This document shows, in pieces, positions 35,534-38,631 of a stretch of DNA of 38,699 nt. Source of the DNA: Treponema sp. (lineage in GTDB: Bacteria; Spirochaetota; Spirochaetia; Treponematales; Breznakiellaceae); the NCBI GenBank assembly GCA_031254615.1, contig JAIRUC010000013.1, positions 1 through 38,699 on the forward strand, read 5' to 3'. The notes under the pieces are model-generated. The model searched no databases and was not told where the DNA came from. It was given only the letters and a program-made list of their open reading frames with translations. The position numbers and the translations under genes were made by a program. The number at the start of each line of letters is the position of its first letter. Position 1 is the first letter of the stretch.

Positions 35534-35558
35534 CAAAATGTATATTTGAAGATTGGCT

Positions 35559-35697
35559 CTATGCAGTCAGGCAGGCGGGGCGCGCACCGGAAAAACTCTG
35601 GGGGAACCTGCTTCCGAGCCCCTTTCAGGGTCTCTACAGCAGAGAGCCCCAGAAGATGTTTTTCCGGCACGCGCCCCGCCTGCCTGACTGCACATAG
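35559..35697. repeat. Large GC-rich inverted repeat, about 37 bp arms
   Basis: The left arm 35559-35595 and right arm 35659-35697 are reverse complements with two mismatched bases (CA against TG) and one 2-nt bulge. The 63-bp centre folds again: TCTGGGG with CCCCAGA, and GGGTCTCT with AGAGAGCCC. It lies between the nuclease-like gene (ends 35533) and the DGR template. It may be a bidirectional terminator, a structured RNA or a MITE-like insertion. It is too long for a simple Rho-independent terminator and lacks a strong adjacent T run. Confidence 0.65.
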
Positions 35698-35749: not shown

Positions 35750-35795
35750 TAAAAAACGCTTTCCGGTTTTCCAATTAGTACCAACAGGAAAGCGT
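35750..35795 (-). terminator. Terminator of the DGR operon
   Basis: On the minus strand ACGCTTTCC (35795-35787) pairs with GGAAAGCGT (35764-35756) across a 22-nt loop, followed by TTTTTT. It lies 65 bp past the end of the TR, where a TR-containing transcript would be expected to end. The stem is 9 bp; the long loop lowers confidence. Confidence 0.6.
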
Positions 35796-35828
35796 GGCTC
35801 GTATTTGCAAAGCATAATGCTTTGCCGG

Positions 35829-35843
35829 GAAGCGGTTTGTTCT
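35829..35843 (-). repeat. Direct repeat flanking the TR, outer copy
   Basis: The 15-bp GAAGCGGTTTGTTCT (plus strand) recurs identically at 36033-36047 inside the reverse transcriptase gene. The two copies bracket the TR, 204 bp apart. The inner copy encodes part of the RT tail (RTNRF), so the outer copy looks like a duplicated or displaced RT 3' end. Confidence 0.6.
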
Positions 35844-35859
35844 GCGGCTGCCTTGCACT

Positions 35860-36009
35860 CCGCAGGGCTCAGGGGCGCACCAAACGGAAGCCGATATTGT
35901 TGTTCCTGTTGTTCGGGTTGTTGTTGTTCCGATAGGCCGAACGGACGTTCTTCGCCGAATTGTTCCAACTCCCGCCGCGTTTCACACGGTTAGCGCCAGA
36001 GACCGCTCC
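35860..36009 (-). repeat. DGR template repeat (TR)
   Basis: About 150 bp on the minus strand, nearly identical to the VR at 37696-37845. The variable span is rich in AAC codons. In the frame of the target protein it would encode [14 protein letters not shown] and a run of asparagines ([11 protein letters not shown]). In the main aligned span there are 36 adenines, 19 of them changed in the VR. The TR starts inside the 3' end of the reverse transcriptase gene: the last nine codons and stop of that gene lie in the TR in a different frame. TR RNA is the template that the reverse transcriptase copies with A-specific errors. The last ~30 nt differ from the VR at three non-adenine positions (IMH-star versus IMH). 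Confidence 0.93.
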
Positions 36010-36995
36010 CCTTTTTCACATAACATTTTTCTGAAGCGGTTTGTTCTTGCAAGATCGATTGCCGCAAAAACACTCCGCACACGTTCTGCCGCTTTTTCTT
36101 CGGTAATGCTGCCTTGATGCAGTAAAGCGGTGATTTCTAACATGCGCCCGGTAACCCTCCTTTTTGATTTGCGCATTAGGTAAATTCCTTTTTCCTTAAT
36201 GAGAAAACCAAGGAACGGCAGACCGGAAGTTGAACTTCCAAATACCGGCGGTTTGAGCGTAAGGTTAAGGTTTTCTTTTACATAATCGTTTATTTTCGCA
36301 CACATATCTTTCAACTGCTCTTTTGATGTTGACCACAGAACAAAGTCGTCCATATAGCGACAATAAGCGGACGGGTGCAGTATTTCAAGAATATGATGAT
36401 CCAAAAAGGCAAGGTGCATGTTGGCGAAAAACTGGCTTGTCAGGTTGCCGATGGGAACGCCTCTGCCGGGCGTTGTTTCGTAACTGTCAATAATGCCGTC
36501 GAATAATGTGATAACCCGCGCGTCTTTTATCAGATGCCGTAATTGGGTTTTGAGTATTTCATGATCGATTGAATCAAAATATTTACGGACATCCAGTTTT
36601 AAAAAATACGGGTTGTGTTTACACTGCCTAAACGCATACTTGGCGGCTGCATGAGTTCCTTTTCCTTTACGGCAGGCGTAACTGTGCCATATCAAAGGGC
36701 GTTCAAGGATCGGCTCTAAAATATTCATTATTGCGTGGTGCATTATCCGCTGTTCAAAAGGGGCGGTGCTGATGGTTCGCAGTTTTGGGTCTGTTATCAG
36801 AAAAGATGTGTATCCGCCCCATCCGGGGTTCAGCGCTGATAATTTATCGCGTAACACACAGAGGTTTTTGTCAAGATTTTGGCAAAAGCTGACGGCTTGC
36901 GGGCTTGAGCGGTTTCCGCGAAGAGCTTTGAGGAACGCAAGGCGGATATTGTTATAATCTACGATACGCTCAAAAAGAAGGTTCTGTCTTTTCAT
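35982..36995 (-). CDS. Diversity-generating retroelement reverse transcriptase
   Basis: Reverse transcriptase of the DGR class, 337 aa. Motif A Asp is D135 ([11 protein letters not shown]), the catalytic YMDD is at 214-217 (RYMDDFVLW), and the DGR-specific motif [11 protein letters not shown] is at 182-192 with Ser-Gln where group II intron enzymes have Ser-Pro. It makes adenine-mutagenised cDNA of the TR, which replaces the VR in the target gene. The start overlaps the HRDC-domain gene by 26 nt. The 3' end overlaps the TR, so the C-terminal residues GERSLALTV are encoded by template sequence. No maturase or endonuclease domain is present, as expected for the class. Confidence 0.95.
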
Positions 36996-37482
36996 TTGCC
37001 CCTTGTTCCTGCGGCATTTGCGCCTCTTGCGCGAACAGATTGATAACCGCCTCGCCGTATTGTTTTACTCTTGATTCGCCTATGCCGGAAATTGAAAGCA
37101 AATCTTTTGCCGTCTTTGGCGGTTTTTTTACCATGCCGGCAAGATGATCGTTGGTAAAAACGGCGTATACGGGTATGCCGGCTTTGTCGGCGATTTCTTT
37201 TCGCAGGTTACGCAGTTTGTCATACAGCGCATATTCCGTTGGGTTCAGCACTTCGCGGTAATCTATTCGCTGGGATGAATTGGACGCGCTCTTGCCGCCT
37301 TCGCCGCCGGCGCTGCCGTATTCGACCAGAAACACCCAGCCTGTTCCGCGATCGCCGTCAATGAGTCTTTTATCAACATTAATAATGCGGTGGGAACGTA
37401 AAAACACGTTTAACTCGTCGGTTACGGATTTTTCGCCGAACGGGCTGACGTAGAAACTGGCGAACTGGGTTAAAAGGGGCAT
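36970..37482 (-). CDS. HRDC-domain DGR accessory protein
   Basis: A 170-aa protein. The start at 37482 is chosen for GGGAGG about 11 nt upstream; longer reading frames begin ahead of this with no family-like sequence. The N-terminal ~55 residues (DELNVFLRSHRIINVDKR then WVFLVEY) are a small alpha/beta region also seen in DGR accessory proteins. Residues ~80-152 form an HRDC domain (TEYALYDKLRNLRKEIADK, FTNDHLAGM, LLSISGIGESRVKQYG), a helical nucleic-acid-binding fold of RecQ and RNase D. HRDC proteins replace the Avd accessory factor in some DGRs. It would bind the RT or the TR RNA/cDNA. Co-transcribed with target and RT. Confidence 0.85.
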   Translation of the reverse strand: MPLLTQFASFYVSPFGEKSVTDELNVFLRSHRIINVDKRLIDGDRGTGWVFLVEYGSAGGEGGKSASNSSQRIDYREVLNPTEYALYDKLRNLRKEIADKAGIPVYAVFTNDHLAGMVKKPPKTAKDLLSISGIGESRVKQYGEAVINLFAQEAQMPQEQGANEKTEPSF

Positions 37483-37508
37483 ACCTGTTTTCCTCCCAAT
37501 AAAATCCA

Positions 37509-37523
37509 CCGCCCTTCGGGCGG
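37509..37523 (-). other. Short hairpin, GAA triloop, before the HRDC gene
   Basis: CCGCCC-GAA-GGGCGG on the minus strand. Same loop as the hairpin at 37653-37667. It falls in the gap between VR and HRDC gene. Confidence 0.5.
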
Positions 37524-37652
37524 AAATTGATCGTTTTTCCTCTAACCTACAAAACCCGTCAGATGTCACCTAACGCACTGAACAGCGCGTTTCCCGTGAA
37601 TGATGCTCCGGCGGCAGGTGGCTTTCGCTGCGCGCTTAACGCGCTCCGCTCG

Positions 37653-37667
37653 CGAACCTTCGGTTCG
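37653..37667 (-). other. Hairpin downstream of the VR (candidate DGR homing hairpin)
   Basis: CGAACC-GAA-GGTTCG on the minus strand, 6-bp perfect stem with a GAA triloop (an unusually stable C-GAA-G DNA hairpin), about 28 nt past the end of VR homology. DGRs such as Bordetella phage BPP-1 carry a GC-rich hairpin just after the VR that aids homing; this may be its counterpart, although the spacing is larger. A second, weaker 5-bp hairpin (CTGAG/CTCAG at 37691-37708) includes the target gene's stop codon. Confidence 0.5.
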
Positions 37668-37695
37668 ACGCCCCCTCGCCGCCTACGCTGCTGAG

Positions 37696-37845
37696 CCGCA
37701 GAACTCAGGGGCGCACAAGCCGGAAGCCGATATTGCTGCCCCTGCTGCCCGGGTCGCCGTAGTCCCGATAGGCCGAACGGACGTGCTCCGCCGAATCGAT
37801 CCAACTCCCGCCGCGAATCACACGGTCAGCGCCAGAGACCGCCCC
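37696..37845 (-). repeat. DGR variable repeat (VR)
   Basis: Covers the last ~46 codons and stop of the target lipoprotein. Compared with the TR, 19 template adenines are replaced (14 by G, 4 by T, 1 by C), giving 14 amino-acid changes, and no non-adenine base differs until the 3' end. There CGTTTG in the TR is CGGCTT in the VR, the usual IMH/IMH-star difference that fixes the direction of information transfer. Confidence 0.93.
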
Positions 37846-38631
37846 GGTCGGGTCAGTCTGCGCACCACTGGAATAATCGCCGTACCAGTCCCAGCACCAT
37901 TCCCATACGTTTCCGCTCATATCATACAAACCAAGTCCGTTAGCTGCTTTTTTCCCTACCTCATGAGTTTTATAGTCGCTGTTATCTTCGTACCATGCCA
38001 CATCACCAACAGTGTTACTTCCCGCATAGGTATAACTTCCCGGTGAACCATTGCCCCCTTTAGCCGCATATTCCCATTGCGCCTCGGTCGGCAGGCGGTA
38101 ACCGTTTGCAGAACTATTCAGCGTTATCGTCCATTTCAGATTATCGTAATAGTTTGTGTTATTTGGATCTTTATTAACTTTATCTATGGCGTAATACGGA
38201 CTTAAACCTTCCTTTACACTCAATGCATTGCAAAACTCTATTGCATCATACCAGCTTACACTCTCCACAGGACGTTTCGACTGTACCTCTCCGGCCGCAG
38301 GGCTGGATGTATAATAACTGGGATTGCTGCCACTCCCCATTACCGCTACCCATTGCTCCTGCGTTACCTGATATTTGCTCATCTTAAAACCAGTCAGCGT
38401 TACCGTATGCACCGGTCTTTCATCACTGTAGCCATCGCTTGTGTCCGGATTCCCCATCTGAAAACTACCGCCGGGAATATTGACCATTTCAATCGGCAAC
38501 GATGATTCGATGATTATTGGTACAGTTTCTTCTTCATCGTCACCGCAAGCGGTAAAACTGAACGCGATTGCCGCAATAAAAACGGCAAGCCCAAAAATGT
38601 GCGCGAAACGAGTCATGAATTTGTTTTTCAT
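37705..38631 (-). CDS. DGR target: FGE-sulfatase/C-type-lectin-fold lipoprotein with variable C terminus
   Basis: A 308-aa lipoprotein: charged MKNKFMTRF, hydrophobic core, lipobox FTAC with Cys29, then an acidic linker. From about residue 50 it has a formylglycine-generating-enzyme-like domain (IEMVNIPGGSFQMG, VTQEQWVAVMG, RPVESVSWYDAIEFCNALS, YRLPTEAQWEYAAKGG, GLYDMSGNVWEWC) whose C terminus is RVIRGGSW followed by the variable residues and GFRLVRP. In Treponema denticola TvpA the same layout displays diversified residues on the cell surface; here the 14 changed positions map to that final ligand-contact region. AAGGAG lies 7 nt before the ATG. Its likely role is a surface binder for shifting ligands, such as host, dietary or phage molecules. 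The active-site cysteines of true FGE are not evident. Confidence 0.93.
   Translation of the reverse strand: MKNKFMTRFAHIFGLAVFIAAIAFSFTACGDDEEETVPIIIESSLPIEMVNIPGGSFQMGNPDTSDGYSDERPVHTVTLTGFKMSKYQVTQEQWVAVMGSGSNPSYYTSSPAAGEVQSKRPVESVSWYDAIEFCNALSVKEGLSPYYAIDKVNKDPNNTNYYDNLKWTITLNSSANGYRLPTEAQWEYAAKGGNGSPGSYTYAGSNTVGDVAWYEDNSDYKTHEVGKKAANGLGLYDMSGNVWEWCWDWYGDYSSGAQTDPTGAVSGADRVIRGGSWIDSAEHVRSAYRDYGDPGSRGSNIGFRLVRP

Follow-up and report, generated by a model that had tools for sequence, protein, structure and literature searches.

The locus studied here raises two questions, namely whether its neighbouring parts make up an intact diversity-generating retroelement (DGR) and what kind of template RNA such an element would use. 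Among the known routes to programmed protein diversity in bacteria, DGRs are a major one; to our knowledge, most of what has been established about their template RNA comes from a single phage element, whose accessory protein is Avd. The window, i.e., the whole stretch of DNA analysed, covers positions 1 to 38,699 of contig JAIRUC010000013.1 (38,699 nucleotides) from a Treponema sp. assembly of 315 contigs that is 78% complete (GCA_031254615.1). The surroundings of the locus are ordinary chromosome (mraZ, rsmH, mraY, ftsW, ftsQ, ftsA, ftsZ, topA, and flagellar genes). A prophage origin was considered and rejected: the window shows no sign of one, and the locus sits among dcw and flagellar genes of the chromosome. 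The locus is very probably an intact HRDC-type DGR, hosted by a termite-gut Treponema-like bacterium and operating by the mechanism proposed below. The gut origin of the host is deduced from its nearest relatives, because several of these are MAGs that we take, from their isolate names rather than from statements in their records, to come from termite guts. The element joins the HRDC-type DGRs that are already known; the architecture of its template RNA is the part that is not in the searchable papers and that deserves specialist attention.

The first-pass annotation had placed a target gene, an HRDC accessory gene, a reverse transcriptase (RT), and a template repeat (TR) in one compact cassette, and all four parts are indeed present on the minus strand, with the reading frames of the three genes open. 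The target gene (37705..38631) encodes a TvpA-like lipoprotein of 308 aa with an FGE-sulfatase/C-type-lectin domain (Pfam PF03781, E 1.9e-55). That it would be a surface lipoprotein of this kind had been predicted, and the prediction agrees with the lipobox FTAC and with the closest solved structure, the T. denticola variable protein 1 (PDB 2y3c, E 6e-59); AAGGAG stands ahead of the ATG. The accessory gene (36970..37482, minus strand) encodes a protein of 170 aa with an HRDC domain (Pfam PF00570, E 2.7e-19). Its open reading frame (37569-36970) extends back to a GTG at 37569, but the true start is likely the ATG at 37482, because a ribosome-binding site (GGGAGG) precedes it. DGRs are recognised in part by an accessory gene (Avd, HRDC, or MSL), and it is the HRDC protein that takes this place here. 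HRDC proteins are known as DGR accessories (PMC10053308, PMC4891356), and it is linkage, and linkage only, that assigns a helper role to this one. The RT (35982..36995, minus strand, 337 aa; RVT_1, PF00078, E 4.5e-19) overlaps the HRDC gene by 26 nt and is the sole RVT_1 match in the assembly. Both of the motifs reported earlier, IGNLTSQ and YMDD, are intact, and the active-site defect that had been named as an argument against the element was not seen. The nearest PDB chain is 8ub7 (E 3.8e-38), with group II and retron RTs far behind, and the protein stays below the cut-off of every NCBIfam intron, retron, and DRT model.

The TR (35860..36009, minus strand) is 150 nt long and overlaps the RT gene, whose final 28 nt, stop codon included, are also the start of the TR. 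The acceptor repeat VR1 (37696..37845, minus strand) spans the final 47 codons of the target and so lies, as is typical of DGRs, at the 3' end of a gene whose product has a C-type-lectin fold. The equal length attributed to the two repeats was confirmed, since they align ungapped over 150 nt, at 84% identity. Among their 24 mismatches, 19 fall on TR adenines, which occupy 37 of the 150 positions (hypergeometric p = 6.7e-10), and the other five lie within the last 25 nt. Neither chance nor ordinary paralogy produces such a pattern. Two further acceptors, absent from the first-pass annotation, were found in trans. VR2 (C251:4560-4709) belongs to a target that is broken off by the contig end and has 22 of 24 mismatches at TR adenines (p 1.5e-14), whereas VR3 (C168:8617-8775), in a complete target of 310 aa with a lipobox, likewise a predicted surface lipoprotein, contains a 9-nt insertion and has 21 of 31 mismatches at these positions (p 7e-9). 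The concentration of differences at TR adenines, a hallmark of DGRs, is therefore present in all three VRs. Between VR1 and VR2 there are 28 differences, 25 of them at TR adenines, and 32 of the 37 TR adenines are altered in at least one VR. The three VRs thus vary among themselves chiefly at TR adenines within a single genome, which stands in, in part, for the comparison of alleles across strains or reads that the first-pass annotation had proposed. As far as sequences can tell, at least three target genes, one in cis and two in trans, draw on the one TR, because the genome has these two trans VRs besides VR1. VR3 may be an old or lost target, because it shows 10 non-adenine differences in addition to the insertion. 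The assembly has five more FGE-sulfatase matches, on contigs C88, C219, C110, C69, and C192, without a VR like the TR; the end of the C88 gene is weakly similar to it.

Donor and acceptor repeats differ systematically at their boundary. The TR ends in AGCC (35866..35869, minus strand), whereas VR1 has AGTT (37702..37705, minus strand), as have VR2, VR3, and most relatives. Of 20 alignable TR/VR pairs, 19 have C in the TR and T in the VR as the first base after the common AG; the remaining pair is C/G, and two further pairs were not alignable at this point. The switch from AG|C to AG|T is a candidate mark of the cDNA start and of donor versus acceptor. The downstream flank of VR1 holds two short GC-rich inverted repeats, both on the minus strand and both candidate target-recognition DNA hairpins: CGAACC-GAA-GGTTCG (37653..37667), conserved behind VR2 and absent behind the TR, and GCGCGTTAAGCGCGC (37630..37644), common to the VR2 flank. 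A 94-nt part of this flank recurs behind VR2 at 94% identity and has no other copy in the assembly, not even behind the TR. The flank of VR3 is without the hairpins common to VR1 and VR2 and has another, weaker one. Both an IMH/IMH* difference (AGTT versus AGCC) and a hairpin behind VR1 and VR2 are present, and we consider them candidates for the corresponding functions. The bacteriophage BPP-1 requires a hairpin/cruciform behind its VR (PMC3240598), a requirement that the flank hairpins of VR1 and VR2 would match by analogy.

The order in the window is target-HRDC-RT-TR, and a TR behind the RT is common to about 20 relatives from three phyla (Treponema MAGs, Bacteroidales, and Verrucomicrobiota), among which the size of the overlap varies. 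The adenine-biased TR/VR pattern is likewise repeated in about 20 relatives. Layouts cluster in the tree of the RT, with six changes in total. The window resembles structural group 3 of Schillinger 2012 (PMC3521204), which is defined by a TR overlapping either end (5' or 3') of the RT ORF, here the 3' end; this group is a layout class only, and the text of that paper leaves HRDC genes unmentioned. Other arrangements were observed among the fetched loci. In L018-L021 (Verrucomicrobiota) and in L052, a near-identical viral contig, the TR lies entirely within a long RT open frame. In one clade (L117, L118, and L123), a TR-like end of an FGE-type gene is on the strand opposite the RT, like in Schillinger group 4.

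What kind of RNA, then, would carry the template? We compared the TR 3' ends and the next 150 nt across relatives and found a common plan, which is absent from the first-pass annotation, as are the overlap of the TR with the RT stop and, in the window, the structured RNA with its terminator-like hairpin, which lies at 35756-35847, right beyond the annotated interval. In its first element, H1, the bases right after AGC at the TR end pair with the stretch directly before an AAC motif, mostly followed by an ACCG-like stretch. In the window this pairing is intact: the 5' arm CTGCGG (35860..35865), which is the TR end, pairs with the 3' arm CCGCAG (35842..35847), after which comes the AAC linker (35841-35839), all on the minus strand. 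At least five of the six pairs form directly before the AAC motif in 23 of 28 sequences (mean 0.36 and maximum 4 in shuffles). The covariation score of H1 is 0.924 (0.240 when shuffled; at most 0.222 in slid versions), but since the register was picked with pairing in view, the register test is the fairer of the two. If the register is left free, the count of pairings hardly exceeds chance, and it becomes significant only with the AAC motif fixed. A variable spacer hairpin, H2, follows (35807..35825, minus strand), and then H3 (35756..35795, minus strand), which is supported by a sequence descriptor, by covariation, and by the covariance model R1.

H3 is built from about 10 outer pairs, a 1x1 mismatch (pyrimidine-pyrimidine in almost every case), 2-3 pairs, an asymmetric [A/G]GUA/GAA loop, a closing pair, and a variable top loop; in the window and in several relatives it is followed by a T run. 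A strict descriptor, run over all loci fetched, gives 20 instances (15 distinct). Each is on the RT strand in a locus of this RT clade, and nearly all stand directly behind an identified TR; single-base shuffles give 2 per 2.4 million bases. In an alignment of 25 sequences with the arms cut at a fixed register, 92% of cells pair (59% when shuffled) and the covariation score is 0.978 (0.312 when shuffled; slid versions at most 0.235); the relaxed descriptor behind this set scored pairing too, the extent of compensatory change not being built in. The sequence consensus and register of a candidate sarcin-ricin (bulged-G/loop E) motif are present in most loci, the invariance of GUA/GAA being partly by construction, because these triplets placed the alignment. 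Model R1 has one significant match in the genome of the window, at 35755-35796 (40.3 bits), and matches 33 loci from this RT clade with E 0.013 or lower. Nine of these were outside the training set, and five of the nine (L023, L043, L113, L114, and L115) have no known near-copies among the model sequences. At E up to 1, its other matches are limited to the phage locus L059 (E 0.12). Model R2, built from Treponema relatives only, finds L012 and L043, and T. denticola at E 0.03, with no match in other phyla. Because of this, the link of H3 across phyla depends on the descriptor and on R1, whose training set included those phyla. One clade (L039, L116, L119, and L120) is without a clear H3 loop, and neither the descriptor nor the model found H3 in the Bordetella phage BPP-1, for whose ribonucleoprotein there is reportedly a cryo-EM paper.

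Neither H1 nor H3 is described in the searchable papers, and none of these, in a literature of incomplete coverage, combines a DGR with a sarcin-ricin loop. H1 and H3 are not in Rfam, which gave nothing at gathering score over the whole window. A weak miRNA match under that score (E 0.03) lies inside a near-palindrome at 35557-35697, whose 40-nt arms are 90% complementary and of which the genome has some nine more copies at 72-85% identity. We rejected this inverted repeat as a component of the template RNA, since it belongs to a family dispersed in the genome and is located beyond H3. A scan for sigma-70 promoters counted no more sites than in shuffles. Some H3-like sequences occur in other settings. 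In L130 and L134 (positions 1501-1547), model matches stand right behind FGE-sulfatase genes, the fetched stretch being without an RT. In L141 (465-1551; G024:C87), the trans target of a relative, a VR-type end (AGTT) is followed by a complete TR-type spacer, identical to the TR spacer of its own genome except for a 21-nt gap. This could be a target made from a copy of the TR, or a record of how TRs arise.

These elements can be arranged into a mechanism. The HRDC-RT transcript would run on into the TR and stop at H3, and its 3' end would be the template RNA, given that the RT stop lies within the TR and that a terminator-like hairpin closes the RNA. Aided by the HRDC protein, the RT would bind the structured tail H1-H2-H3, and cDNA would be primed at the H1 junction, probably from an adenine of the AAC that follows the 3' arm. 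Copying would begin at or beside the AG|C boundary, with the RT misincorporating opposite template adenines, and the mutated cDNA would replace VRs that have the acceptor boundary AG|TT and a downstream DNA hairpin. Positions beyond the cDNA start would not be overwritten; we propose that, as copying starts upstream of the C/T position, this difference keeps the TR a donor and the VR an acceptor. The outcome would be lipoproteins whose C-type-lectin binding sites are diversified. We infer these steps, including the priming adenine and the cDNA start, from the anatomy of the locus and from the mechanism of BPP-1, which provides a precedent for spacer folding and internal adenine priming (PMC12875486). 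In more general terms, we think it probable on balance that an undescribed template RNA, in which H1 lies at AG|C and H3, with its sarcin-ricin-type loop, docks RT-HRDC, is common to the HRDC-DGRs of Spirochaetota, Bacteroidota, and Verrucomicrobiota, that in the lineage of the window the RT mRNA provides this template with its own 3' end, and that C or T after AG marks donor or acceptor.

Three other explanations must be weighed against this. If the TR and VRs were ordinary paralogous gene ends that had drifted or been gene-converted, the other FGE-sulfatase genes of the genome and the resemblance of the TR to the 3' end of that family would be accounted for. Yet the adenine bias is one-directional (p 7e-10 to 2e-14), a mismatch spectrum that refutes paralogy, the RT and HRDC genes are linked, and relatives repeat the adenine pattern, which leaves this explanation virtually without a chance. 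The DGR could instead have been silenced recently, its parts intact, its diversification over, and its adenine differences fossils. A single MAG cannot directly show ongoing activity, VR3 has an old look, and there are T. denticola strains that keep targets after losing the RT and TR (PMC4891356). Against silencing, which we deem distinctly unlikely, stand the open frames and catalytic motifs, the preserved pairing of both H1 and H3 in the window, and the near-restriction of differences to adenines in VR1 and VR2.

The explanation that bears on the RNA itself is that H3 is a mere intrinsic operon terminator, with the patterns in its loop and in H1 as by-products of common descent. The T run after H3, the failure of the Treponema-only model in other phyla, and the H3-like matches behind three FGE-type genes without a nearby RT would all fit. 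However, a terminator needs no [A/G]GUA/GAA loop at a fixed register, one so rare in shuffled sequence, and the stems of H3 covary; H1 is in register far more often than expected, and H3 is still found behind the TR where the TR precedes the HRDC gene. We find such a terminator unlikely and retain H3 as a probable part of the template RNA.

A covarying RNA of the HRDC class would provide a map, consisting of H1, the AAC linker, the H3 loop, and the AG|C to AG|T switch, on which two questions become testable, how cDNA is primed and how donor and acceptor are discriminated. The covariance model can also locate TRs that lack a nearby VR. The window itself adds a termite-gut lineage in which a single TR goes with at least three target genes.

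Two known systems are closest. The BPP-1 DGR (bRT, Avd, and Mtd) resembles the window in the family of its RT (8ub7), in adenine mutagenesis, in having a structured spacer behind the TR and a hairpin behind the VR, and in a TR/VR identity that also ends directly after a G. It differs in having Avd instead of HRDC, a TR upstream of the RT, and a phage tail target, and in being without H3. The TvpA DGR of T. denticola (ATCC 35405; Nimkulrat 2016, PMC4891356; 2y3c) is much like the window in its FGE-sulfatase lipoprotein targets, several of them in trans (two to seven target genes per isolate, PMC4891356), in its adenine-specific VRs, and in an HRDC accessory gene that overlaps the RT gene; its RT is about 43% identical to that of the window. 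The first-pass annotation had taken the two layouts to be the same, and here it has to be corrected: T. denticola has target-TR-HRDC-RT, with the TR between the target and the HRDC gene (PMC4891356), whereas in the window the TR lies behind the RT and overlaps it. The T. denticola locus (L124, whose RT is at the ATCC 35405 coordinates given in PMC4891356) nevertheless has both H1 and H3 in its spacer.
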